This document shows positions 155-16,831 of a DNA stretch of 46,106 nt, piece after piece. This stretch comes from Gammaproteobacteria bacterium. GTDB taxonomy: Bacteria; Pseudomonadota; Gammaproteobacteria; Pseudomonadales; Azotimanducaceae. Numbering within the stretch: position 1 is the first letter of the stretch; every line of letters begins with the position of its first letter. Position numbers and translations under genes: made by a program. The DNA lies in contig JAPOYV010000076.1 of the NCBI GenBank assembly GCA_026706385.1, positions 1 through 46,106 of the forward strand. Reading direction: 5' to 3'. Below the pieces are notes generated by a model. That model was given only the letters and a program-made list of their open reading frames with translations, made no database searches and was not told the origin of the DNA.

Positions 155-374
155 CCGTTCCGGCGGAGAGGACGCAAGGCTACACGAATCGTGAGTCAAA
201 TCACAACAAGACCCACAACAAAATCTGGCGTCCGCTCGTCACAGGATGACACGGGGAGGCACCGCTAGGTACGCATGATGTGTCGTTTTAATACTGATAA
301 AACAGTGGTTTTCTTGAGTATCGCAAGTGTAGGAGGGTGCAGCGCAGACGCAGGACCGACCGCCGGGAGGCTCA
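155..374. other. Upstream region of the integrase, no gene seen
   Basis: The stretch is AT-richer than the rest of the window, especially 275-330. It includes a small inverted repeat, GTTTTA(N7)TAAAAC, near 288-306. On the minus strand TTGCGA and TTTTAT are about 18 bp apart and could be a weak integrase promoter, but this is speculative. I see no coding frame and no tRNA end that would serve as an attachment site. Confidence 0.3.
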
Positions 375-431
375 ACTCACACAAGCACTACCGGCCGCGC
401 CGCCGCCGGATTCCACCGGTGGCCCTGGACG

Positions 432-889: not shown

Positions 890-2041
890 TTACCGCCGGA
901 ACGCGCTCCCCATTAGGTCCTCGAAGTTGCCGCGAAAGAAGCGATCCCGGTCCCCATCCGACAACGTCGCGGTCGAGCGATCGAACCGTCCGTACGGGTT
1001 GCGACCGCCTTCGACGTGCGGATAGTCCGACGAGAACATGCAGATCCCCGGCGCGGACTGCTCGACGATCCAGGAGGTGGGTTCCGTGGGGTAGGGGGTG
1101 ACGCGCACTTGGCGCGTGATGTACTCGCTCGGCCTCAGCTTCAGTTCCTGGAGTCGCGTCTCATGCCTTCCGAACGCCTCGAGCGCGGCGTCGAGTTGGC
1201 GCATGAAGCCCGGCAGCCAGAGCGCGCCGAGTTCGATCACGCCGACTTTGAGCTTCTCGAAGCGGTCCAGGACGCCGTCGAGGATCAGCATGGATAGCGC
1301 CTGCATGGGACCGTGCGGGATCGCCATGTAGGAGATCGAGCGGAAGTTTTCTTCGCCGCCGTGGAAGTCGGGGACCGGAGGCAGGCCGTTGTTCTTATGG
1401 GCGCGCGGCAGTACGCGGTCGGCGGCACCGACGTGGAAGAGGATCGGCAGTCCGGCATCGACCGCCTGCGACCAGACCGCGTTGAGGGCGACGTGGCTGG
1501 TGGCGTGGTTCTTGGGGCAGAGCCACGGTACGAGGAGTGCCTGGATGCCAAGCTCGATGGCCTCGGACGCGACTTTGGGTGCGCGCTCGAGATCGGCCAG
1601 CGCCACATAGCCAACGGGCAGCAGCCGGACATCCACCGAGCAGAACGCGACTTGCGCGCGATTCGTCGCGGACGCTGCGCCGTACAGCAGGTCGATGTCG
1701 TCGCCGTGCTCCAACTCCTCGAGCCAGACGTTGGGCGAGGTCGGGAATACGAGCTGACTGGCGACGCCGATCAGGTCGAGCGCCTCGCTGCGGTCGTCGC
1801 GGCGGAAGGACCCCGTCGCGGCGTGGTTCTTGCGCAACATGATTTCGTCCGCGTTGGCGTCGCGATAGGCCGGATCGTCGTGACGCGCGACGGTGTCAGC
1901 GAGTGCTGCAGCGTACCGGGTGCCGAATCGCGCGTTGAAGGCGTCGCGCACGCGGTGCTCGGCGAAGTCGTCCAGCCAATGGGCAAGTTCCATGACGTGG
2001 GAGTCGGCGTCGTGGACGACGCGGTCGGCGATATAGGGCAT
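890..2041 (-). CDS. Amidohydrolase family protein (Amidohydro_2)
   Basis: This 383-aa protein belongs to the metal-dependent TIM-barrel amidohydrolases of the Amidohydro_2 type, which include ACMSD-like decarboxylases and hydrolases. The N-terminal metal motif is HDADSHVME (about residues 9-17). A central barrel-strand histidine lies in LFHVGAADRV and the late motif is SSDYPHVEGG, where the Asp and His are typical metal or active-site residues. Length fits the family. The start is ATG at 2041 with no strong ribosome binding site. Two more paralogues of this family lie in the window (9598-10752 and 21204-22442). The substrate cannot be deduced. Confidence 0.88.
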   Translation of the reverse strand: MPYIADRVVHDADSHVMELAHWLDDFAEHRVRDAFNARFGTRYAAALADTVARHDDPAYRDANADEIMLRKNHAATGSFRRDDRSEALDLIGVASQLVFPTSPNVWLEELEHGDDIDLLYGAASATNRAQVAFCSVDVRLLPVGYVALADLERAPKVASEAIELGIQALLVPWLCPKNHATSHVALNAVWSQAVDAGLPILFHVGAADRVLPRAHKNNGLPPVPDFHGGEENFRSISYMAIPHGPMQALSMLILDGVLDRFEKLKVGVIELGALWLPGFMRQLDAALEAFGRHETRLQELKLRPSEYITRQVRVTPYPTEPTSWIVEQSAPGICMFSSDYPHVEGGRNPYGRFDRSTATLSDGDRDRFFRGNFEDLMGSAFRR

Positions 2042-2086: not shown

Positions 2087-3748
2087 TTACCCGGATGCGC
2101 GCTGAATCGTGTGCACGTGGTAGGGCTCGAGCGTGTCGATGGCGCCCTCGGGTTCGCCCCGTCGCCATTCGAACAGCCGGACCGTGACGGAACCGGGATC
2201 GATGTCGAGCAGCGCGAAGCCGTTCTTCTCGCGGACGCTCGCCACGTCCTCCACCTCGAGGCCGCTGGCGACCAGCGGCGGTGTGCCGCGGGCCCGGGAG
2301 GGCCAACCGACGCCGGTGCCCAACGGACCCGTCAGAATGGCATGGACCGGGTTCGGCAGGGCGAGGTCCTGGCTGTGCCGGATGCGGACATGGCCCGTGG
2401 CGTGCAGGTCACCGGACAGGACGACGCCTGCACGCTTGGGTTGTCCGCCAAGGGCGGCGAGGAGCCGTTGGTGCTGCAGGAACCAGCCGCGCTGCCAGAG
2501 GAACTTGCGTCGTGCCGTGGTGAGCCGGAACGTCTTCTCGCCGTCCGGCCGCATTTGCGCCACGGCAGTGTCGCCCTCGCCCGTGTCGGCGACGTCGGGG
2601 TACCACTCGCGCCACTTGCCCGCCGTCCAGCCGAACGGGTGGGACGGCACATGGAAGACGTGCCGGACACGCTGATCGGCGGTTCGGGCGACGAGCCACG
2701 CTTCCGACTCGGGCGGCACCAGGCCGGCGACGTCCCCCTTGAGGCTCACGAACCGGGCGCAGTCGTAGATCAGCGCCTCGGCGAGGTTGCCGTAGCGGAA
2801 CGTGCCGAAGCTCTCCGAGATGCCGGGCCCGCGGTCGCCGGCGCCTGCGCCGGACATCAGCACGGGGCGGTCTGGATCGGGCAGGAATTCGGGCATGAAC
2901 AGCTCGCGCGTGAATCGCGCAAAGGACAGTTGGTATTCATGGGGCGGCAACGTGACGAACCGACCGGTCGCCTCGTCATTCTCGAAGTAGTCGTGGTCGT
3001 CCGAGACGAAGTAGCTCGGCGTGGAGCGCAGCATGACCCCGTAGAGGTCCGCGAATTGGGGCTCGACGGCGTTCTTGATGGCGGCTTCGTTGACGGTGCC
3101 CTTGGCGGGAAGACCGGGGTCGAGCATGCCGCGCGAGGTATACCAGGCGTGGGCTCGCTCGCGGACATCCTCGCGGGCCGATTCAAGCTGGGTGCGCTGG
3201 TCCCAGTAGATGTGATCGCCGATGGCGATGGCGGCATCGGGCGCGAAGGACAGGGCGCGCCTGAGCAGACGGCGGCGCAGCGCCAGGGATAGAAACGGCT
3301 GGACGTCGCCGGGGTACGCCGGATAGCCCCCGGCGCAGGTATACGCCAGCAGGCGAACCGATGTCGGCTGCGCGTCGGGGGCCGGGTAGGTCTTGAGGGG
3401 CCACGGGTCGGTGAGCGGCGCCTGGCCGTCCGTCAGTTGCAGCGTGTACTCGTGGTCGGGCTTGAGGCCGCCGACGTCGAAGGCGAAATAGCGGCCCTCG
3501 GAGTCGGTCATCCGTGCGCGCACGCGCATGTCGGCGTTCGCAAGCACCGGCGGCGGCCGGGGCGAGCGAAAGGAGCACTTGATCAGGAAGCGGTCGTGAT
3601 TGGCGGCGGGCACGAGGTGTTTGAGGTCGCCCGACCACCAGCCGTCGTCGGCTCGCTCGCTTGCCGACGAACGCGCCATGGGCACGAGCGCCAAGGCTGC
3701 CGTCGCGCCGCTGGCGCGGACAAACCGACGCCGGTTCCAGTCGGCCAT
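2087..3748 (-). CDS. PhoD-like metallophosphatase, Tat-exported
   Basis: The 553-aa product starts at ATG 3748, preceded by a clear GGGAGGGG ribosome binding site. It opens with a twin-arginine signal (NRRRFVRASGATAALAL). The body carries alkaline phosphatase D-type metallophosphatase signatures: IGDHIYWDQRT, FVSDDHDYFEND and, late, LSGDLHATGHV. These are metal-binding Asp/His motifs of the calcineurin-like fold. It should act in the periplasm on phosphodiesters or phosphomonoesters. A longer frame upstream of 3748 exists but would bury the Tat signal, so I prefer this start. It lies 45 bp upstream of the amidohydrolase on the same strand and may be co-transcribed. Confidence 0.85.
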   Translation of the reverse strand: MADWNRRRFVRASGATAALALVPMARSSASERADDGWWSGDLKHLVPAANHDRFLIKCSFRSPRPPPVLANADMRVRARMTDSEGRYFAFDVGGLKPDHEYTLQLTDGQAPLTDPWPLKTYPAPDAQPTSVRLLAYTCAGGYPAYPGDVQPFLSLALRRRLLRRALSFAPDAAIAIGDHIYWDQRTQLESAREDVRERAHAWYTSRGMLDPGLPAKGTVNEAAIKNAVEPQFADLYGVMLRSTPSYFVSDDHDYFENDEATGRFVTLPPHEYQLSFARFTRELFMPEFLPDPDRPVLMSGAGAGDRGPGISESFGTFRYGNLAEALIYDCARFVSLKGDVAGLVPPESEAWLVARTADQRVRHVFHVPSHPFGWTAGKWREWYPDVADTGEGDTAVAQMRPDGEKTFRLTTARRKFLWQRGWFLQHQRLLAALGGQPKRAGVVLSGDLHATGHVRIRHSQDLALPNPVHAILTGPLGTGVGWPSRARGTPPLVASGLEVEDVASVREKNGFALLDIDPGSVTVRLFEWRRGEPEGAIDTLEPYHVHTIQRASG

Positions 3749-3871: not shown

Positions 3872-4624
3872 ATGCGCAACACCGTCAAAGAAAAGCTCGC
3901 TGCCGGCCAACAGGTGATCGGCGGCACCATCGACACGCCCGACCCGGACGTCTACTGCGCCATGGCGCGCGCCGGGTTCGACTTCCTGTGGATCGAGATG
4001 CAGCACAGCCCGTTGTCGTACCAGGAGGTCGCGCGGATGATCTGGGCCGGGCGGGATCTGCCCGCCATGCCGTTCATCCGGGTGCCGGATGCCACCGAGG
4101 GCGACATACAGAAAGCGACCGACATCGGCGCCCTCGGCATCATCGTGCCGATGGTGGTCGAGGTGGAGAAGATCAAGGCGGCGGCGCACTTCATGAAGTA
4201 CCCGCCGGCCGGGGCACGCAGCCTGGGTGGCGGCCAGTACGGCGCGCTCTACGGCGGCAGCTACCGTGCTGAAGCCAACGACAACATCGCCCTCGTGGCC
4301 ATGATCGAGTCGCCCGCGGGGGTCGAGAATGCGGCCGAGATCGCGTCGGTGCCCGGGGTCGACGTGGTGTTCTCGGCGGCGACCGACCTCAGCAGCTTCT
4401 CCGGCCATCGCCAGGGGGAGCCGGCGTATGAGGAGCTGATCACGCGTATTCGCGACGAGACGCTGAACGCGAACCGCAAGGTCGGCGGGCCATTGCAGTG
4501 GCGGACCCGGGAAGGATTCAGCTTCTTCCAGGCCCCGAGCGCGCCAGCGATGATTTCGCGCGGCGCACGCGAGTTCCTGAAGAGCGAGGAAACGGTGGCA
4601 CCGACCGAGGGCACGGAGCGGTAA
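3872..4624 (+). CDS. HpcH/HpaI-family aldolase
   Basis: The 250-aa product matches class II HpcH/HpaI pyruvate aldolases, which cleave 2-keto-4-hydroxy acids. Visible features are the N-terminal KEKLAAGQQVIGG block, DFLWIEMQHSP (metal or substrate strand), the RVPDA loop, GALGIIVPMV and the MIESPAGVEN motif, whose Glu is a metal ligand in the family. GGQYGALYGG corresponds to the phosphate or carboxylate-binding loop. The frame is open upstream, but ATG 3872 gives the usual family length. The gene is divergent from the PhoD-like gene and converges on the DUF6491 gene with 2 bp between the stop codons. Confidence 0.88.
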   Translation: MRNTVKEKLAAGQQVIGGTIDTPDPDVYCAMARAGFDFLWIEMQHSPLSYQEVARMIWAGRDLPAMPFIRVPDATEGDIQKATDIGALGIIVPMVVEVEKIKAAAHFMKYPPAGARSLGGGQYGALYGGSYRAEANDNIALVAMIESPAGVENAAEIASVPGVDVVFSAATDLSSFSGHRQGEPAYEELITRIRDETLNANRKVGGPLQWRTREGFSFFQAPSAPAMISRGAREFLKSEETVAPTEGTER

Positions 4625-11824: not shown

Positions 11825-12302
11825 ATGGACCGCGACGAAGCTGGCGGCGTCTCAAGGCGGAAGATCGTCAAGTCCGCTATCGTGCCAGTTGTCCTGGCTA
11901 CCCTGCCCAGGAGATCAGCAAGCGAGTCCACGACCATGGCCACCTCTGAAGACCAACTCCCGTACCTCTCGACCACCGCCCAGGCCGCGCTGATCGGCGG
12001 CGGAGAACTCGCGAGCGAAGAGCTTACTGCGCGCTATCTGGAGCGGATCGAGCGCTTCAATCCTCGACTGAACGCGGTGGTCGCCTTGGCGGACGATGCC
12101 CGCGAGCGGGCTCGGGACGCCGATCGAGCGCTTGCCGAAGGGCGCTCGCTTGGTCCGCTGCACGGCGTGCCCATGACCATCAAGGACTGCTTCGACACGG
12201 CGGGCGTGGTCTCAACCTGGGGCACGATGGGCCGCAAGGACTTCGTGCCCGATGCCGATGCGACGGTGGTGGCGCGCCTCAAGGCGGCGGGCGCGATCCT
12301 CC
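11825..12302 (+). pseudogene. Exported amidase, 5' half (split by IS1595 element)
   Basis: This frame starts at ATG 11825 with a GAGGA site and a twin-arginine-like signal (SRRKIVKSAIVPVVLAT). It then enters an amidase-signature-family N-domain: ERIERFNPRLNAVVALADDA and GPLHGVPMTIKD, where the Lys is the catalytic-triad lysine. The frame breaks at the IS boundary after AAGAIL. Joined across the element to 15768, minus one target duplication, it gives one 513-aa amidase with AGAILLGKTNTPEFT across the junction. The truncated product lacks both catalytic serines and should be inactive. Confidence 0.9.
12295..12302. repeat. 8-bp target-site duplication, left copy
   Basis: GATCCTCC directly abuts the left terminal inverted repeat and is repeated exactly at 15760-15767. 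Eight base pairs is the length typical of IS1595-family insertions. Confidence 0.95.
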
Positions 12303-12326
12303 GGTGATTATGCACTTGACAAAGTG
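12303..12326 (+). repeat. Left terminal inverted repeat of the IS1595 element
   Basis: The left end reads GGTGATTATGCACTTGACAA followed by AGTGA. It matches the reverse complement of the right end at 22 of 24 positions. The differences are C/T at base 13 and T/C at base 22. Confidence 0.93.
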
Positions 12327-12345
12327 AAAAACCGTGCGGTATCAT
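12316..12345 (+). promoter_or_regulatory. Inward promoter overlapping the left TIR
   Basis: A consensus -35 box TTGACA (12316-12321) lies inside the terminal repeat. An 18-bp gap separates it from TATCAT (12340-12345), five of six matches to the -10 consensus. It points at the transposase, leaving a leader of about 160 nt. TIR-embedded promoters couple transposase expression to end occupancy by transposase, but that regulation is only inferred. Confidence 0.65.
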
Positions 12346-12509
12346 TTGCTTATGGTGTCCGAAGCGTCCTTTTCACTTCCTAGCAGGGCATCGACCTTGC
12401 GCATGATCCGCTTGCCGAAGATCGACTCCATCAGCGTATGGTCGTCGGCTTCCATCGCCGCCTTGGGCACCTTCCTTCGCTTCCTTTCAGCCTTGGGAGA
12501 TTGAGTCAT
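12342..12509 (-). CDS. Possible 55-aa basic protein antisense to the transposase leader
   Basis: The frame starts at ATG 12509 and shares the tetranucleotide CATG with the divergent transposase start at 12508. A GGAG lies about 9 bp upstream. The product begins MTQSPKAERKRRKVPKAAME and contains HTLMESIFGKRIMRKVDALL, a plausible amphipathic helix. It covers nearly the whole leader of the transposase gene, where no plus-strand gene casts a shadow. No family is recognised. It could be a regulator of transposition or a chance frame. Confidence 0.4.
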   Translation of the reverse strand: MTQSPKAERKRRKVPKAAMEADDHTLMESIFGKRIMRKVDALLGSEKDASDTISK

Positions 12510-13410
12510 GGCCGGTTTCTCCATTGTGGATTTGATCGACAAGTACGAGTGCGACGACAAGTGCCGCGACGCGCTGGAACAACTGCGCTGGCCGGACGGC
12601 GTGTGCTGCACCCGCTGCGGATACATGGACGTTCTGGAACTGCCCAAGCACGACCGTTGGGAGTGCAAGGGCTGCGGCTACCAGTTCAGCGTGACGAGCG
12701 GAACGATCATGCACGACACGCACCTTCCGCTCCGCAAGTGGTTCCTCGCCATCTACCTCATGTGCGAGTCGCGCAAGGGCGTAAGCGCAAACCAGTTGAA
12801 GCGCACTCTCGGGGTCGCTTACCGCACCGCCTGGTATCTCTGCCACCGCATCCGCGAGGCAATGGGCAACGACCCGCTCAACGGTCGGACGCTGGTCGGC
12901 ATCATCGAGGTCGACGAAACGTTGGTCGGCGGGCGAGTCAAGAAAGGCGAGAATCCGCGGAGCAACAAGACGCTGGTCGCCGGTGCCATCGAACGCGGCG
13001 GTCGCGTCCGAATCGAGAGAATCCCGGACGCCAAGCGCCGCACCCTGCACGACTTCATCGACCGCTCCATCAGCGACAAGGCCGAGGCCGTCTACACCGA
13101 CGAACTGGCGTCCTACCTCGGCCTCGCGGACGGCAAGATCAGACACGAAACCGTCAACCATTCCGAGGAAGAATGGGTCGTCGGAGACGTGCATACCAAC
13201 AGCATCGAAGGCGTGTGGTCGCTGTTCAAGCGGTCGATAGTCGGCGCGTTCCACAAGATGAGCGCCAAGCACATGGACCGCTACCTTGAGGAATTGGAGT
13301 GGCGCTTCAACAACCGCAACAACCCGCACATCTTCCGCGACACGCTGGCCCGGATCGTCAAGACCGACCCCATGACCTACCGGGAACTTGTCGAGGGTGA
13401 AGCGGCCTAG
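12508..13410 (+). CDS. IS1595-family (ISXO2-like) transposase
   Basis: The 300-aa product has an N-terminal zinc ribbon with Cys34, Cys37, Cys53 and Cys56 (CTRCGYMD ... CKGCGYQF). The ISXO2-like DDE domain follows: Asp136 in IEVDETLVGG, Asp198 in VYTDELASY and the late HTNSIEGVWSLFKR motif (Asn231/Glu234). The C-terminus is RYLEELEWRFNNR, also characteristic of the family. All expected residues are present, so it should be active. Start ATG 12508 has GGGAGA about 7 bp upstream. Expression is probably driven from the promoter inside the left TIR. Confidence 0.95.
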   Translation: MAGFSIVDLIDKYECDDKCRDALEQLRWPDGVCCTRCGYMDVLELPKHDRWECKGCGYQFSVTSGTIMHDTHLPLRKWFLAIYLMCESRKGVSANQLKRTLGVAYRTAWYLCHRIREAMGNDPLNGRTLVGIIEVDETLVGGRVKKGENPRSNKTLVAGAIERGGRVRIERIPDAKRRTLHDFIDRSISDKAEAVYTDELASYLGLADGKIRHETVNHSEEEWVVGDVHTNSIEGVWSLFKRSIVGAFHKMSAKHMDRYLEELEWRFNNRNNPHIFRDTLARIVKTDPMTYRELVEGEAA

Positions 13411-13423
13411 CGGTCGCACCGCT
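13409..13423 (+). terminator. Weak hairpin at transposase stop
   Basis: AGCGGT-CGC-ACCGCT forms a perfect 6-bp stem overlapping the transposase stop codon, in the 38-bp convergent gap before the HNH gene. There is no U-tract, so it is at best a weak or bidirectional terminator or an mRNA 3' stabiliser. Confidence 0.3.
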
Positions 13424-13448
13424 CCCATGTGGCGCACAAGACTGGCCT

Positions 13449-14057
13449 TCATCGTTCCGGCCCCTGCAGCCGCGCCATCCGACATTCGCCAAGGATGGCT
13501 TCCAAGGCATCGCGCTCGGCATGGTCAACCGATAGCTGCCACTTCCGCTTGACCTGTATCCAGCGTCGCGCATACCAGCAGCGGTTCTCGTCGGGCAACC
13601 AGTCCGCCGGGTCGAAGGCGCGCTTCTGACGCCGGTTCACTTCGGGCGATGCTAGGGTGAGATTCAGCAGATCGCGGGCGAAGCCACGCCTTGCATCCTT
13701 CGACCTAGCACAAAGGCCGCTGTCGTGCGCTTCCGACCGAGGCACGATGTGTTCGATATCGGTTTCCCGGATGCTGGCGAACCGACGTCGCGTGTAGGGC
13801 GACCAGACGCCGCCCTGCTGTTCGACGATCTCCCGTTCGATGGACGCCGGATAGGAGTAGTCGGCCGCCTCGTAGACGGAACAGCGACTTTCGTTCTCGA
13901 CTGCCAGACCGCGCCACGTTTCGGCGGTCGATGGCAAGGCAAAGAGCGCCACTAGAGCAGGGATGGTTGCTGCGCCGACTCCGACCCTATGCGTCGTCAG
14001 GCTGGCCGCGGAGCGACCACGGCCCCGGAGCCGACGCCGCCCGCAAAGTGTATGCAT
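13449..14057 (-). CDS. HNH endonuclease with signal peptide (passenger gene)
   Basis: The 202-aa product starts at ATG 14057, inside a TIR-like sequence. It has a long basic N-region and a hydrophobic segment (VGVGAATIPALVALFALPST) that looks like a cleavable signal ending near Ala45. The catalytic region is DIEHIVPRSEAHDSG (His103 with the DxEHIVP pattern), followed by FARDLLNLTLASPEVNRRQK (Asn132/Asn141). Late WLPDENRCWYA and the long Arg/Lys region resemble DUF1524/GmrSD C-terminal-type or secreted HNH nucleases. Export suggests scavenging or antagonism rather than a restriction role. It is not IscB: no RuvC domain is present. Confidence 0.8.
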   Translation of the reverse strand: MHTLCGRRRLRGRGRSAASLTTHRVGVGAATIPALVALFALPSTAETWRGLAVENESRCSVYEAADYSYPASIEREIVEQQGGVWSPYTRRRFASIRETDIEHIVPRSEAHDSGLCARSKDARRGFARDLLNLTLASPEVNRRQKRAFDPADWLPDENRCWYARRWIQVKRKWQLSVDHAERDALEAILGECRMARLQGPER

Positions 14058-14062
14058 TTGAC
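14051..14062 (+). repeat. Internal TIR-like 12-mer
   Basis: TATGCATTTGAC is identical to bases 7-18 of the right terminal inverted repeat as read inward from 15759. It is oriented like the left TIR and sits at the junction between the HNH gene start and the structured intergenic region. It may be a relic of an older transposon end. Confidence 0.5.
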
Positions 14063-14092
14063 GCAGACAGCCCAAGGGCGTAGCGTGGAAAG

Positions 14093-14227
14093 CGGATTGC
14101 GTGTTTGGCGTGCTGCCCCTTGCCGGGTTGCCCGCTGAATAAGCCGGGTCAACGCCGGGAGTAGCTACCCGTCGCCGGACGAATAGGCGGGGCTTCTCGC
14201 ACAGCACGCTGGCAGATGCGCAATCCG
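14093..14227 (+). ncRNA. Structured RNA candidate, nested stems (HEARO/omega-RNA-like?)
   Basis: This lies in the 366-bp region with no gene between the two cargo genes. A closing stem CGGATTGCG (14093-14101) pairs with CGCAATCCG (14219-14227). Inside it GCGTGCTG (14108-14115) pairs with CAGCACGC (14202-14209). Next CCCC-TT-GCC (14116-14124) pairs with GGC-GGGG (14186-14192). The core holds GTTG-CCCG (14127-14134) with CGGG-T-CAAC (14145-14153), loop CTGAATAAGC, and a CGGG/CCCG hairpin (14156-14171). Further hairpins follow at 14231-14247 and 14265-14280. The architecture and the GAATAAGCCGGG-like core recall HEARO RNAs, the guide RNAs of IscB nucleases, but that is recollection, not a search result. 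Strand is inferred from the loop sequences. Confidence 0.5.
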
Positions 14228-14401
14228 ACAGCCCGGCGCCATCGGGCGGACGGGCAAAGAGCCGAGGGACGAATGTCCCTTGCTGAGCCAACAACCAAGA
14301 ACAGACGCCCCTCGGCGATGCAACCCAACCCGGAGATTGGGCGCGTCGCGAAGTGTACGTAGCACCGAAACGGCTGTTCAAGCGGAAACTGCGTCGCCGC
14401 C

Positions 14402-14420
14402 CGTCTCCCTTTCGGAGACG
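14402..14420 (+). promoter_or_regulatory. Hairpin sequestering the ribosome binding site
   Basis: CGTCTCC (14402-14408) and GGAGACG (14414-14420) form a perfect 7-bp stem with the loop CTTTC. The GGAG inside the 3' arm is the only good ribosome binding site for the ATG at 14424. Folding would block translation, for example in read-through transcripts. Confidence 0.45.
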
Positions 14421-14423
14421 AAG

Positions 14424-15143
14424 ATGAAGAAGCGACTGCTCGCACCCCTTGCCCTGATGGCCGCGACCACCAGCGCCGACCCCGACGTCCACGGCAGAAT
14501 CGGCGACGCCTTCGCACGGAAGGCGCTTCACAAGACGTGCCTCTATCCCGATCCCGTCTACGCCCCGTCGCTGCGCGTCTGCGGCAACAAGGTCGCATCC
14601 AAGGGCGGGGTCGTTCCCCGCAGCTTCGGGCCAACGGTGACCTTTGCCGGAACCATCTACGAAGACCAGGGGTTGGCGTCGATCTTCAATCTCGTGGTCA
14701 CCGAGCGGGACGGAGATCCCGAGCTGAGGAAGCGGCTGAACGTCCTTGTGCACTTCGACGCCATCGAGTCGGCGGAAGCCGGAGAAGCCCGCTACATCTT
14801 CGACGTCGTTCCCGAGTACGGGCAGGCCGCGCCGTATGGCCCCTACGGCCTTGTCCGGCCCTACTTCTATGTGGGCATCGACGCCGAGTCGCACGGCTGC
14901 GGGTTCGGGGTCAAGCACCGACTTACTTGGGCGTTCTGTGATGCCGACACCACGCAGTCCGCCATCAACACGGTGGCGGCCGGGATCAACAGGGCGTTGC
15001 AGTACGGCTTGGACGCCACGTCGTGCCGCCACCGTGGGGTGTTGATTGGCACCCGCGTCGACGGGCATTCGCCGGTAACGTGGGAAATGCGCCACTACGA
15101 CGACATCGAAGTCGGCGAGTGTTCGGACCCCGACAAGCATTGA
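14424..15143 (+). CDS. Exported six-cysteine protein of unknown function (passenger gene)
   Basis: The 239-aa product begins with a signal-like MKKRLLAPLALMAATTSADP. The mature part has six cysteines (KTCLYP, RVCGNK, HGCGFG, AFCDAD, TSCRHR, GECSDP), which suggests periplasmic disulfides. Segments such as VTFAGTIYED and FNLVVTERDGD look like beta strands, but I recognise no family. Start ATG 14424 has GGAG 7 bp upstream, held in a hairpin. The gene lies between the RNA candidate and the convergent membrane-protein gene, wholly inside the IS1595 element. Immunity to the neighbouring nuclease is one possibility, with no direct evidence. Confidence 0.65.
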   Translation: MKKRLLAPLALMAATTSADPDVHGRIGDAFARKALHKTCLYPDPVYAPSLRVCGNKVASKGGVVPRSFGPTVTFAGTIYEDQGLASIFNLVVTERDGDPELRKRLNVLVHFDAIESAEAGEARYIFDVVPEYGQAAPYGPYGLVRPYFYVGIDAESHGCGFGVKHRLTWAFCDADTTQSAINTVAAGINRALQYGLDATSCRHRGVLIGTRVDGHSPVTWEMRHYDDIEVGECSDPDKH

Positions 15144-15166
15144 GTGCGTCTGCCGACCAATGACCA

Positions 15167-15709
15167 TCATTCGATGAACCAATCACCAAAGACCAGGTGT
15201 AGCGTCGCGGTGAAGCGGGCTGGTTGCGCAAACGGATCAAAATTCAGCGTGTAGGTTACGAATCCATCTACCTTGACCGGATGTGCCCTATCCTGAATGC
15301 GTTGGTCTGAGAACTGTAGTCGGTAGTGTTCAGGCACGCGCAACTGCACGCCCACCGTGTGCACGCTGTCGTCGGGGACTTCCACCATTACGGACTCGCC
15401 ACTTCGTCGCGAGACGGTCAGAACGTCGCCGATTCGACGTCCCTCGTCGAAGTTGAAAACGAACCATCTGACGCCCACGCGTCGCTTCATTTTCCATCTG
15501 CGATAAACACCGAGCGTTGTCGCCCATTTGCCGACGTCCTTGCGGTAGATCACGAGTCCCGACAAACCCCACAGACCTAATCCGGCCACTGAACTCCAGA
15601 ACGGAACCCATGTTGCGAGTCCGCCAGTCATGGCGTACTCCACGACCCCAGCACCGGGACCGGGAATGAGAAGGGCGCAGACGCCGAACAAGACGAACGA
15701 CTTAGACAT
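15167..15709 (-). CDS. Two-TM membrane protein of unknown function (passenger gene)
   Basis: The 180-aa product has two N-terminal membrane segments (about residues 4-25 and 34-56). A basic patch, YRRWKMKRRVGVRWFVF, follows, then a soluble beta-rich C-domain (VLTVSRRSGESVMVEV, VGVQLRVPEHYRLQF). No family is recognised. Start ATG 15709 lies 27 bp inside the right TIR. Its base composition is less GC-biased than neighbouring host genes, consistent with cargo acquired elsewhere. It faces the exported cysteine protein, with 23 bp between the two stops. Confidence 0.6.
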   Translation of the reverse strand: MSKSFVLFGVCALLIPGPGAGVVEYAMTGGLATWVPFWSSVAGLGLWGLSGLVIYRKDVGKWATTLGVYRRWKMKRRVGVRWFVFNFDEGRRIGDVLTVSRRSGESVMVEVPDDSVHTVGVQLRVPEHYRLQFSDQRIQDRAHPVKVDGFVTYTLNFDPFAQPARFTATLHLVFGDWFIE

Positions 15710-15735
15710 GACGGCGAACCATGACCCCGCTGGCT

Positions 15736-15759
15736 CGCTTTGTCAAATGCATAATCACC
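15736..15759 (-). repeat. Right terminal inverted repeat of the IS1595 element
   Basis: Read inward from 15759 on the minus strand it is GGTGATTATGCATTTGACAA followed by AGCG, matching the left end at 22 of 24 bases. It also holds TTGACA but lacks a -10 at suitable spacing. Confidence 0.93.
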
Positions 15760-15767
15760 GATCCTCC
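15760..15767. repeat. 8-bp target-site duplication, right copy
   Basis: GATCCTCC immediately follows the right terminal repeat and matches the copy at 12295-12302 exactly. Confidence 0.95.
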
Positions 15768-16831
15768 TGGGGAAGACCAATACACCGGAGTTCACGCTCT
15801 CGTTCGAGACCCACAACAACATCCACGGCTTCACCAACAATCCCTACGACCTCGACCGCTCGCCCGGGGGCAGCAGCGGGGGTGCGGCTGCGGCGATCGC
15901 TGCGGGGCTCACCTCTTTCGACATCGGCACCGACTACGGCGGCAGTATTCGCGTGCCGTCGCATTCCTGCGGCACTGTGGGCATCAAGCCGACCAGCGGC
16001 AGCGTGCCGCGCACCGGGCTCTGCCTGCCGCCCGGCATGCTGACGGACTTCCTTAGCCACGCCGGGCCCATGGCGCGGACCGTTGACGACCTCGAGCTCA
16101 TCCTCTCGGTCATCTGGGGACCGGACGGCCTCGACACGCGCATCCAGCCGATTCCGCTCGCGGTGTCCGGCGGCGTGAACCTGGCGGGTCTGCGCTGCGC
16201 CGTGATGATCGACAACGGCGTTGCGACGCCGGACGAGGAAACCGTTGCCGTGGTCGAGCGCGCCGAAGCAATCCTCGACCGGGCCGGGCTCGTGATGCGT
16301 CGGGATCGGCTCGACGCGGTGGAGGAGACCACCTCACTCGGTGGCGGCTTCTGGCCGGTGGGCGCCCATGCGGGTGTACGCGCGCTGCTCGACGAGGCCG
16401 GGACCGCGGTCGCGGACTACGGCAACAACTGGTTCAGGCAGTTCGCGGCGTCGCCCGCGGCCGACGAGATTCCGGCGGCGGCGCTGGCCCGCCAGTTTGC
16501 GCGGTTCGAGGACTATCGCCGCCGCATGCAGCAGCACATGGCGCGCTACGACGTGCTCATCTCGCCGGTCAACGCGCACCCGGCCCCAAGGCATCCCGCG
16601 CCCGGCGACTCGCCGTTTCCGACGGAGGATGCGAGTTACACCGAGGCGTACGATCTGACCGGCTGGCCCGCAGGCGTCGTGCGGGGCGGCACGTCGTCGG
16701 ACGGCATCCCGATCGGCGTCCAGGTGGTGGCCAACCCCTGGCGCGAGGACATCGTGCTTGCCGTGATGAGGCACCTGGAGGCGTCGTTGCCGGTGTTCGC
16801 GGGGCCGGACGAGGGCCCGTGGACGTCGTAG
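15768..16831 (+). pseudogene. Exported amidase, 3' half (split by IS1595 element)
   Basis: The frame resumes with GKTNTPEFTLSFETHNN and carries the amidase-signature core. SPGGSSGGAAAAIAAG holds the cis-serine. DIGTDYGGSIRVPSHSCG holds the nucleophile serine in the GxSxR setting. The rest is a normal C-terminal domain ending WPAGVVRGGTSSDGIPIG, then EDIVLAV. No start codon precedes the signature motifs, so alone it is non-functional. Precise excision would restore 514 codons including the stop. No other lesion is seen, which supports a recent knock-out. It is convergent with the DUF2235 gene, with no gap. Confidence 0.9.

Follow-up and report, generated by a model that had tools for sequence, protein, structure and literature searches.

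An IS1595-family transposon carries a structured RNA

The window, by which we mean the whole stretch of 46,106 nucleotides analysed here and from whose first letter all plain coordinates below are counted, contains a transposon with a structured RNA in its cargo. The following elements surround the RNA:

12303..15759 (+): IS1595-family transposon carrying the RNA (ends and repeat by eye, transposase by profile)
12508..13410 (+): IS1595 (ISXO2-like) transposase (PF12762, E 5.4e-37; NF033547, E 2.1e-62)
13452-13994 (-): cargo HNH protein (GmrSD_C domain match)
14273..14362 (+): short ORF of 29 aa preceded by GAGG; the closest start codon to have a Shine-Dalgarno (SD) sequence, and the presumed target (from sequence)
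14424..15143 (+): cargo protein with a signal-peptide-like start; second candidate target (from sequence)

The transposon is bounded by perfect 11-bp inverted ends (GGTGATTATGC...GCATAATCACC) and flanked by an 8-bp target repeat, GATCCTCC, at 12295-12302 and 15760-15767, all recognized by eye. Neither the protein encoded at 14424-15143 (+) nor a further cargo protein at 15167-15709 (-) matched Pfam or NCBIfam at E up to 0.1. The GmrSD_C-type HNH protein encoded at 13452-13994 (-) has a signal-peptide-like start, which is unexpected for a restriction enzyme subunit. Directly before the RNA, GTGTATGCATTTGACG at 14045-14067 looks by eye like the inverted end of the transposon (..TTATGCATTTGACAAAG). 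An internal copy of that end may thus have supplied the -35 element of the RNA, and the cargo might represent a nested second unit.

The + strand of 14058-14300 folds at -117.9 kcal/mol compared with -98.9 (sd 4.8) for shuffled sequences (z -3.98, 0/200 as good), while the - strand gives z -1.89 with 9/200 shuffles as good. The shuffle test, the relatives described below and the surrounding transposon bear out the proposal of the initial annotation that a structured RNA sits on a mobile element. The end given there (14423) lies too far downstream: the RNA stops near 14247, and 14273-14362 is the short ORF, which begins 75 nt past the conserved core. The start of this ORF is common to the related genome G014 (G014:C248) at 81% DNA identity. 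Because of that match 14259-14360 was initially read as RNA, and this candidate for a second structured module was dropped as the reading frames show the start of the short ORF.

Being large and structured, and lying on mobile DNA near an HNH gene, the RNA invites comparison with HEARO/omega-RNA (RF02033), and the initial annotation had proposed a guide of this kind lacking its IscB. In the window no Rfam family was matched at gathering score, and HEARO was still not listed when the threshold was relaxed to E 5 for 12300-15770 and to E 10 for 14060-14270. The neighbouring HNH protein is of the GmrSD_C type, and protein family searches of the cargo found no adjacent IscB (RuvC and HNH). Likewise, no IscB or HNH family was present in the 25 families shown of the 39 Pfam families matched by 102 proteins downstream of relatives. 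A HEARO-like guide is thus extremely improbable and close to refuted. The window was likewise without a match to the C4 antisense RNA model (RF01695), whether scanned at gathering score or permissively. Weak window matches to DUF3800-XI, L4-Archaeoglobi, cow-rumen-1 and MIAT, far under their cut-offs, were judged to be chance, as were below-cut-off matches of relatives elsewhere (HgcC, tmRNA, and Xist_exon1 at 20.2 bits overlapping the L213 core).

The RNA belongs to a family with a patchy distribution

Comparison with relatives divides the RNA and its surroundings into the following parts:

14058..14086 (+): predicted sigma-70-like promoter, TTGACG at 14058-14063, 17 nt, TAGCGT at 14081-14086 (sequence; a family-wide feature)
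14092..14115 (+): A1, 5′ arm of stem P1 (A1:A′ anneal at -38.4 kcal/mol)
14113..14197 (+): conserved core, the stretch modelled by covariance models R1 (75.5 bits, E 1.4e-15) and R2 (67.4 bits), the window sequence being among those used to build both
just before G14122, after U14121 (+): putative RNase P cut (RNase P-like signature)
14122..14127 (+): B1, 5′ strand of the pseudoknot, GCCGGG (comparison of relatives)
14131..14135 (+): 5′ strand of P2, CCCGC (2/5 P2 pairs covary significantly)
14157..14170 (+): P4 hairpin, GGG-AGUAGCUA-CCC (covariation at alignment pairs 51-63 and 53-60)
14187..14191 (+): 3′ strand of P2, GCGGG (covariation)
14202..14227 (+): A′, 3′ arm of P1, presumably also the antisense arm (annealing and complementarity tests)
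14232..14237 (+): B′, 3′ strand of the pseudoknot, CCCGGC (comparison of relatives)
14238..14241 (+): GCCA, the tail following the pseudoknot stem (of the RCCA type found in RNase P substrates; sequence)
14243..14247 (+): B2, CGGGC, a competitor able to pair with GCCCG at 14231-14235 (sequence)

A DNA search of 97 genomes (the window's own genome and relatives) gave weak matches in 76 of them at E up to 1, many of which are noise. Within this set, 14112-14197 recurs at 72-76% identity in six genomes (G008, G011, G002, G048, G010, G007) and at a second site in the own genome. A blastn search of plasmids and phages with 14086-14260 found no DNA relatives, and a 23-base stretch shared exactly with three genomes of another genus was dropped, with no further similarity seen by eye.

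Model R1, built from fifteen cores, matched 45/206 genomes of the host's family (eight of the 45 had supplied the fifteen seeds), in 5/37 genera and with up to 16 matches per genome. R1 was applied to 100 of 108 sources (eight with short flanks being left out), and the resulting 102 matches were used to build R2. The own genome contains seven R1 matches at E up to 0.01 and six R2 matches at E up to 0.1. Under strict filters R2 matched 8/390 genomes of the order, three of these eight outside the host's family, and 3/398 genomes of the phylum, one of them the own genome. The distribution across order and phylum is patchy.

A DNA pattern scan of named genomes returned at least 119 stretches, of which 80 were turned into loci. 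Among the pattern matches listed, R2 matched 60/80 loci (65 matches in total), some of which coincide with loci that carry G handles. Sorted by the taxon names in their records, the R2-positive loci among the matches listed belong to Alphaproteobacteria (17), Gammaproteobacteria (16), Acidobacteriota (11), Gemmatimonadota (7), Limisphaerales (4), Binatia (3), Nitrospirales (1) and 'Proteobacteria' (1). We take the Limisphaerales loci to be Verrucomicrobiota and the Nitrospirales locus to be Nitrospirota, which gives six phyla among the matches listed. Judging by their bin codes, many of these records are presumably sponge metagenome bins. In IMG/VR, one of five pattern contigs was matched by R2.

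Two loci contain a pair of copies in opposite orientation, 1.2-4.1 kb apart: L145 at 1201-1263 (+) and 2503-2564 (-), and L222 at 300-388 (-) and 4524-4612 (+). Genus g8 (G106, G107, G120; L123, L140, L151, L154) holds many copies per genome, with 16 in G106, and by eye several of these precede paralogous proteins starting MKTLRKLLAGT or MNTLRKLLAGT. At L151, arm A1 looks by eye like that of another copy, yet A′ still fits its own start region.

Relatives define a fold with a pseudoknot

The core of the window RNA is a member of a genuine structured RNA family, and its relatives give a fold in which stem P1 varies in sequence, the inner stems covary and 14122-14127 forms a pseudoknot with 14232-14237. 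The 9-bp stem (14093-14101/14219-14227) and the 8-bp stem (14108-14115/14202-14209) of the initial annotation are both present, but together they form the one interrupted stem P1. In contrast, its 'CCCC-TT-GCC' stem is an alternative seen in the single sequence: relatives pair GCCGGG at 14122-14127 with CCCGGC at 14232-14237, and CCCGC at 14131-14135 with GCGGG at 14187-14191. The layout is therefore not nested without conflict, as had been described, since the GCCGGG:CCCGGC pairing is a pseudoknot that reaches outside the closing stem. The single-sequence fold of the window RNA differs from the conserved fold.

P1 has no conserved sequence. Nevertheless, its two arms anneal at a mean of -28.5 kcal/mol when taken from the same locus, compared with -13.8 across loci, and for 94/100 loci the own arm pair falls in the best 5%.

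The inner stems covary among homologues in three sets of sequences. With 15 sequences aligned by MAFFT and a hand-drawn structure, six pairs change on both sides (shuffled mean 2.1, 0/500). With 102 model-fitted sequences, an alignment that leans to the covariance model, 15/15 pairs change on both sides (shuffled mean 11.0, 2/500), with 174 cells versus 52.3 and 90.7% of cells paired versus 76.9%. A stricter R-scape-like test, in our own implementation, took 149 MAFFT-aligned cores and redistributed the substitutions along a tree from FastTree. Considering all column pairs, E fell below 0.5 only for 53-60 (0), 19-84 (0.05), 21-82 (0.13) and 51-63 (0.43). Considering only the 22 proposed pairs, E was below 0.05 for 19-84 and 21-82 of P2 and for 51-63 and 53-60 of P4; 36-72 of P3 (0.078) and 11-95 of the pseudoknot (0.065) were borderline, and the other 16 of the 22 were not significant. 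Within P4, G-C alternates with A.A. The strongest covariation is at 53-60 in the P4 loop, where the pair closing UAGCU is either G-C or A.A, a pattern suggestive of a conserved loop motif.

Four of the six pseudoknot pairs hardly vary, which leaves little room for covariation there. Among 100 loci, with B′ located by motif, the strands are GCCGGG/CCCGGC in 47, GUCGGG/CCCGGC in 29, GUCGGG/CCCGAC in 14 and GCCGGG/CCCGAC in none. Pair 11-95 is C-G in 64, U-G in 61, U-A in 18 and G-C in four of 149 sequences, giving 98.7% paired.

Between the covarying stems lie segments that are very conserved outside stems (GAAUACAACAG, UAGCU and CGAAUAGG), a feature that speaks for the main rival explanation considered here, an orphan riboswitch. 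Its core would bind a small molecule; ligand would favour P1 and the pseudoknot, freeing the start region of the downstream gene, while in the ligand-free state A′B′ would pair with B2A2 and translation would be off. We regard a riboswitch as unlikely for reasons given in the following sections.

The RNA takes a leader position before genes without a common pathway

A good -35/-10 pair is found within 75 nt before the core in 68/152 unique loci with upstream sequence, compared with 1-9 of about 150 at twelve control offsets (nine further upstream, three downstream). On the other side, 82/140 loci have a same-strand start 50-110 nt after the core, defined as an ATG with a Shine-Dalgarno-like sequence and an ORF of 60 or more codons, compared with 18 in a divergent control and 22 in a later sense window. 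The RNA of this family often lies between a promoter and a gene start.

The downstream proteins often have signal-peptide- or lipoprotein-like starts by eye. The 102 that were searched match 39 Pfam families, the biggest being DNA methylase (4), CsgG (4) and LRR (3) among the 25 families shown; because these 39 families account for at most 56 member-matches, at least 46/102 proteins match none. An attempt to deduce a ligand from gene content revealed no theme, with no Pfam family in more than four of the 102 proteins. The occurrence of several copies per genome ahead of different genes would suit a riboswitch, but this spread of families and the unmatched remainder argue against one because they leave it without a common pathway.

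The window RNA is a far relative of sRNA-Xcc1

Permissive scans with the Rfam model of sRNA-Xcc1 (RF02221) matched three of 21 sources, all divergent members: L294 at 37.2 bits (E 0.001), L159 at 33.7 (E 0.007) and L293 at 28.3 (E 0.13), the gathering cut-off being 53. All three matches overlie an R2 match on the same strand. The same scans gave no match in the window, nine close homologues and 8/11 divergent sources. Elsewhere in the own genome RF02221 gave one match of 20.9 bits (E 1.0), off every R2 place. The outer helix of the RF02221 model corresponds to the pseudoknot B1:B′ of the window branch, and since L293, L294 and L158 have P1 too, they bridge the window branch and sRNA-Xcc1.

Canonical sRNA-Xcc1 sequences were retrieved with the Rfam consensus from four plasmid records, 16 phage records and 191/5,426 E. 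coli genomes, and 11 loci were taken. All 11 pass the RF02221 cut-off, and R2 finds 4/11 in place (E 2e-4 to 0.03). All nine annotated loci have a gene start 34-46 nt past the RF02221 match; seven of these nine genes are ant, anti-repressor, KilA-N, ORF6N (twice, one protein) or BRO and two are hypothetical. We take KilA-N, ORF6N and BRO to be antirepressor-type domains.

The two branches share the core AAUACAA...CC/GG..GAAUA, an inner stem, an outer helix (B1:B′) followed by RCC, the leader position, complementarity of A′B′ to the start region of the gene, and carriage by phages or mobile DNA. In the canonical loci A′B′ pairs with its own start region at -22.1 versus -14.6 kcal/mol, a comparison of ten loci (two of them almost identical, one with its start codon chosen by hand) without a permutation test. 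They differ in that the window branch has the upstream stem P1, usually the P4 hairpin, and other kinds of downstream genes; the window RNA itself lacks a family match and has P1 in place of a local 3′ hairpin. No P1 was seen in the canonical loci (own -13.1, others -14.0), and the two branches therefore cannot switch in exactly the same way. The RF02221 matches of L294, L159 and L293, although below the cut-off, support the view that the window RNA is a far relative of sRNA-Xcc1. The best explanation of these sequence likenesses is that it represents a new, P1-bearing branch of an sRNA-Xcc1 RNA superfamily.

An E. coli prophage locus (L305) holds isrK, C4 and sRNA-Xcc1 RNAs in a row, at 462-649 and 1486-1569, where the C4 RNA precedes a Rha gene and sRNA-Xcc1 precedes an ORF6N gene. 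A similar cluster of C4, isrK and sRNA-Xcc1 in Xylella is tabulated in a published paper.

Across the family, A′ complements the start of the gene behind it

When A′ was compared with the 70 nt after B′ in 100 loci, own pairings reached -19.7 versus -15.4, with 22/100 in the best 5% and eight the best of all. This result is modest, and target pairing is far weaker than P1. In 60 loci with A′ tested against the start region, none of 5,000 permutations was as good in either of two composition groups; L107, L079 and L049 are examples of strong A′:A2 pairing. For the larger test 90 of 167 rows qualified (B′ motif, unique core, ATG 55-110 nt on). Own A′B′ paired with the start region at -25.6 versus -20.4 in 67 GC-rich loci (z -12.9) and at -21.3 versus -14.1 in the 23 other loci (z -9.2), with 0/10,000 permutations as good in each case. 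Coverage of the SD bases was no greater for own A′ (0.67) than for foreign A′ (0.646), and the idea that SD masking is under selection was abandoned as inseparable from composition. The complementarity of A′ to A2, the segment of the start region facing it, is therefore locus-specific, without excess SD coverage.

A′ thus has two mutually exclusive partners, A1 and A2, a further point in favour of a riboswitch. In simple duplex energies P1 and the pseudoknot reach -38.9 versus -28.2 for the alternative pairing, and they beat A′:A2 in more than three quarters of the 90 loci, so that in most loci the leader appears to be more stable in its folded form.

For the window copy, A′B′ pairs with the start of the short ORF (14273-14362) at -23.7 kcal/mol, no better than other 37-nt cargo stretches (mean -21.1, sd 4.9), with the region of ATG 14424 at only -16.5 kcal/mol, and with the whole of 14238-14300 at -30.3 kcal/mol. 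The target pairing of this copy may be weak, decayed or aimed elsewhere.

A role in trans would place the targets elsewhere in the genome, the position before a gene being incidental to mobile cassettes. In its favour, sRNA-Xcc1 was reportedly presented as a trans-acting sRNA, as the title of Chen 2011 has it, and papers, as far as their available parts go, predict many distant targets, for the Xylella copies even plant targets. Against it, complementarity to the adjacent downstream gene exceeds that to the downstream regions of other loci, and same-strand starts are over-represented at a fixed distance. We consider a purely trans-acting sRNA quite improbable. Rather, the RNA probably switches off the gene directly behind it by pairing with its start region, in keeping with the possible role as a regulator that the initial annotation had offered.

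The pseudoknot is followed by an RNase P-like signature

U-1, G+1 paired with C72, and RCCA are marks of RNase P substrates. After removal of 27 of 167 rows (duplicate, without B′ motif or out of register), RCC follows the pseudoknot in 95/140 loci, NCC in 110/140 (background 5.8%) and NCCA in 57 (background 1.6%); this tail lay outside R1 and R2. U-1 is present in only 70/140 loci of the window branch. The window copy has U14121 (U-1), G14122 (G+1) and GCCA. As read from the printed sequences, the canonical loci have U-1 and G+1 in 11/11 and RCC in 10/11, three of them RCCA, these loci having been fetched by a consensus that includes the tail.

According to the available part of one report, an artificial pseudoknot aptamer is cut by RNase P RNA only with an RCCA-type tail (PMC12710915). 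The C4 antisense RNA, as described in another, is released from a larger transcript by RNase P, and its variable loops bind the target in such a way that the ribosome-binding site there is occluded (PMC5320573). In phage P1, a C4 RNA precedes an antirepressor-type gene (PMC8201110). The sections available for sRNA-Xcc1 describe a discrete 88-nt RNA with mapped ends (PMC2996969) and, in Xanthomonas cassettes, a position upstream of symE (PMC12444791). The 87-position model RF02221 begins at B1, which fits a cut there and equally a transcription start.

These observations bear on the riboswitch alternative. The window branch resembles translational riboswitches in its conserved core, variable P1 and competing pairing near the start codon, but differs in that its downstream genes share no pathway and in its RCC(A) end, for which a riboswitch has no role. 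The published discrete 88-nt RNA and the canonical members preceding antirepressor-type genes, as C4 does in phage P1, also argue against it, as far as these partly available sources go.

Instead, the tail signature, the C4 precedent and the start of RF02221 at B1 favour a C4-like antisense RNA directed at its own gene. With C4 (RF01695) the window branch shares a conserved scaffold with variable arms, which in C4 bind the target and occlude a ribosome-binding site and here would act likewise; C4 is a different Rfam family, and the RNase P maturation described for it in the available text is predicted for the window branch. On balance, we hold by a small margin of confidence that the RNA is a C4-like antisense RNA, cut from a leader and silencing its own gene.

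The RNA would have a promoter of its own and form the leader of transcripts that continue into the gene or genes behind it. The core stems P2, P3 and P4 would hold the pseudoknot B1:B′ such that it imitates a tRNA end, with G+1 paired with C and followed by RCC(A). A cut by RNase P immediately 5′ of B1 is probable and would leave an RNA of about 120 nt in the window, compared with 88 nt for sRNA-Xcc1. Arm A′, aided by B′, would then bind A2 and B2 in the start region of the gene behind it and block translation, and in the window branch the leader arm A1 would compete for A′ through P1. As with C4 of phages P1 and P7, every mobile gene would get its own silencer.

Discussion

The window RNA belongs to a kind already known. 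Its branch reaches six phyla among the matches listed, and Rfam scans gave the window core no credible family. In the open-access literature, which leaves Chen 2011 aside, the P1-bearing branch, the branch-wide pseudoknot, the self-target and the RNase P readings were not found and may be new; the available parts of PMC2864571 and PMC8201110 were among the texts covered, and a search of that literature with exact consensus strings of the RNA returned no paper.

A broader proposal, which we put forward tentatively and rate somewhat below an even chance, is that sRNA-Xcc1 and the window branch form a cross-phylum superfamily of RNAs with tRNA-end-mimicking pseudoknots, matured by RNase P, that act as private antisense silencers travelling with mobile or accessory genes. 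The carriers would include phage antirepressor genes, integron cassettes, IS1595 cargo and exported proteins of apparently sponge-associated bacteria. If true, the superfamily would extend past phage C4 as a portable, immunity-like module. If the leaders act on the neighbouring gene, the predictions of distant and plant targets for sRNA-Xcc1 need rereading, and E. coli would allow tests of a general means by which mobile genes bring along a silencer of their own.
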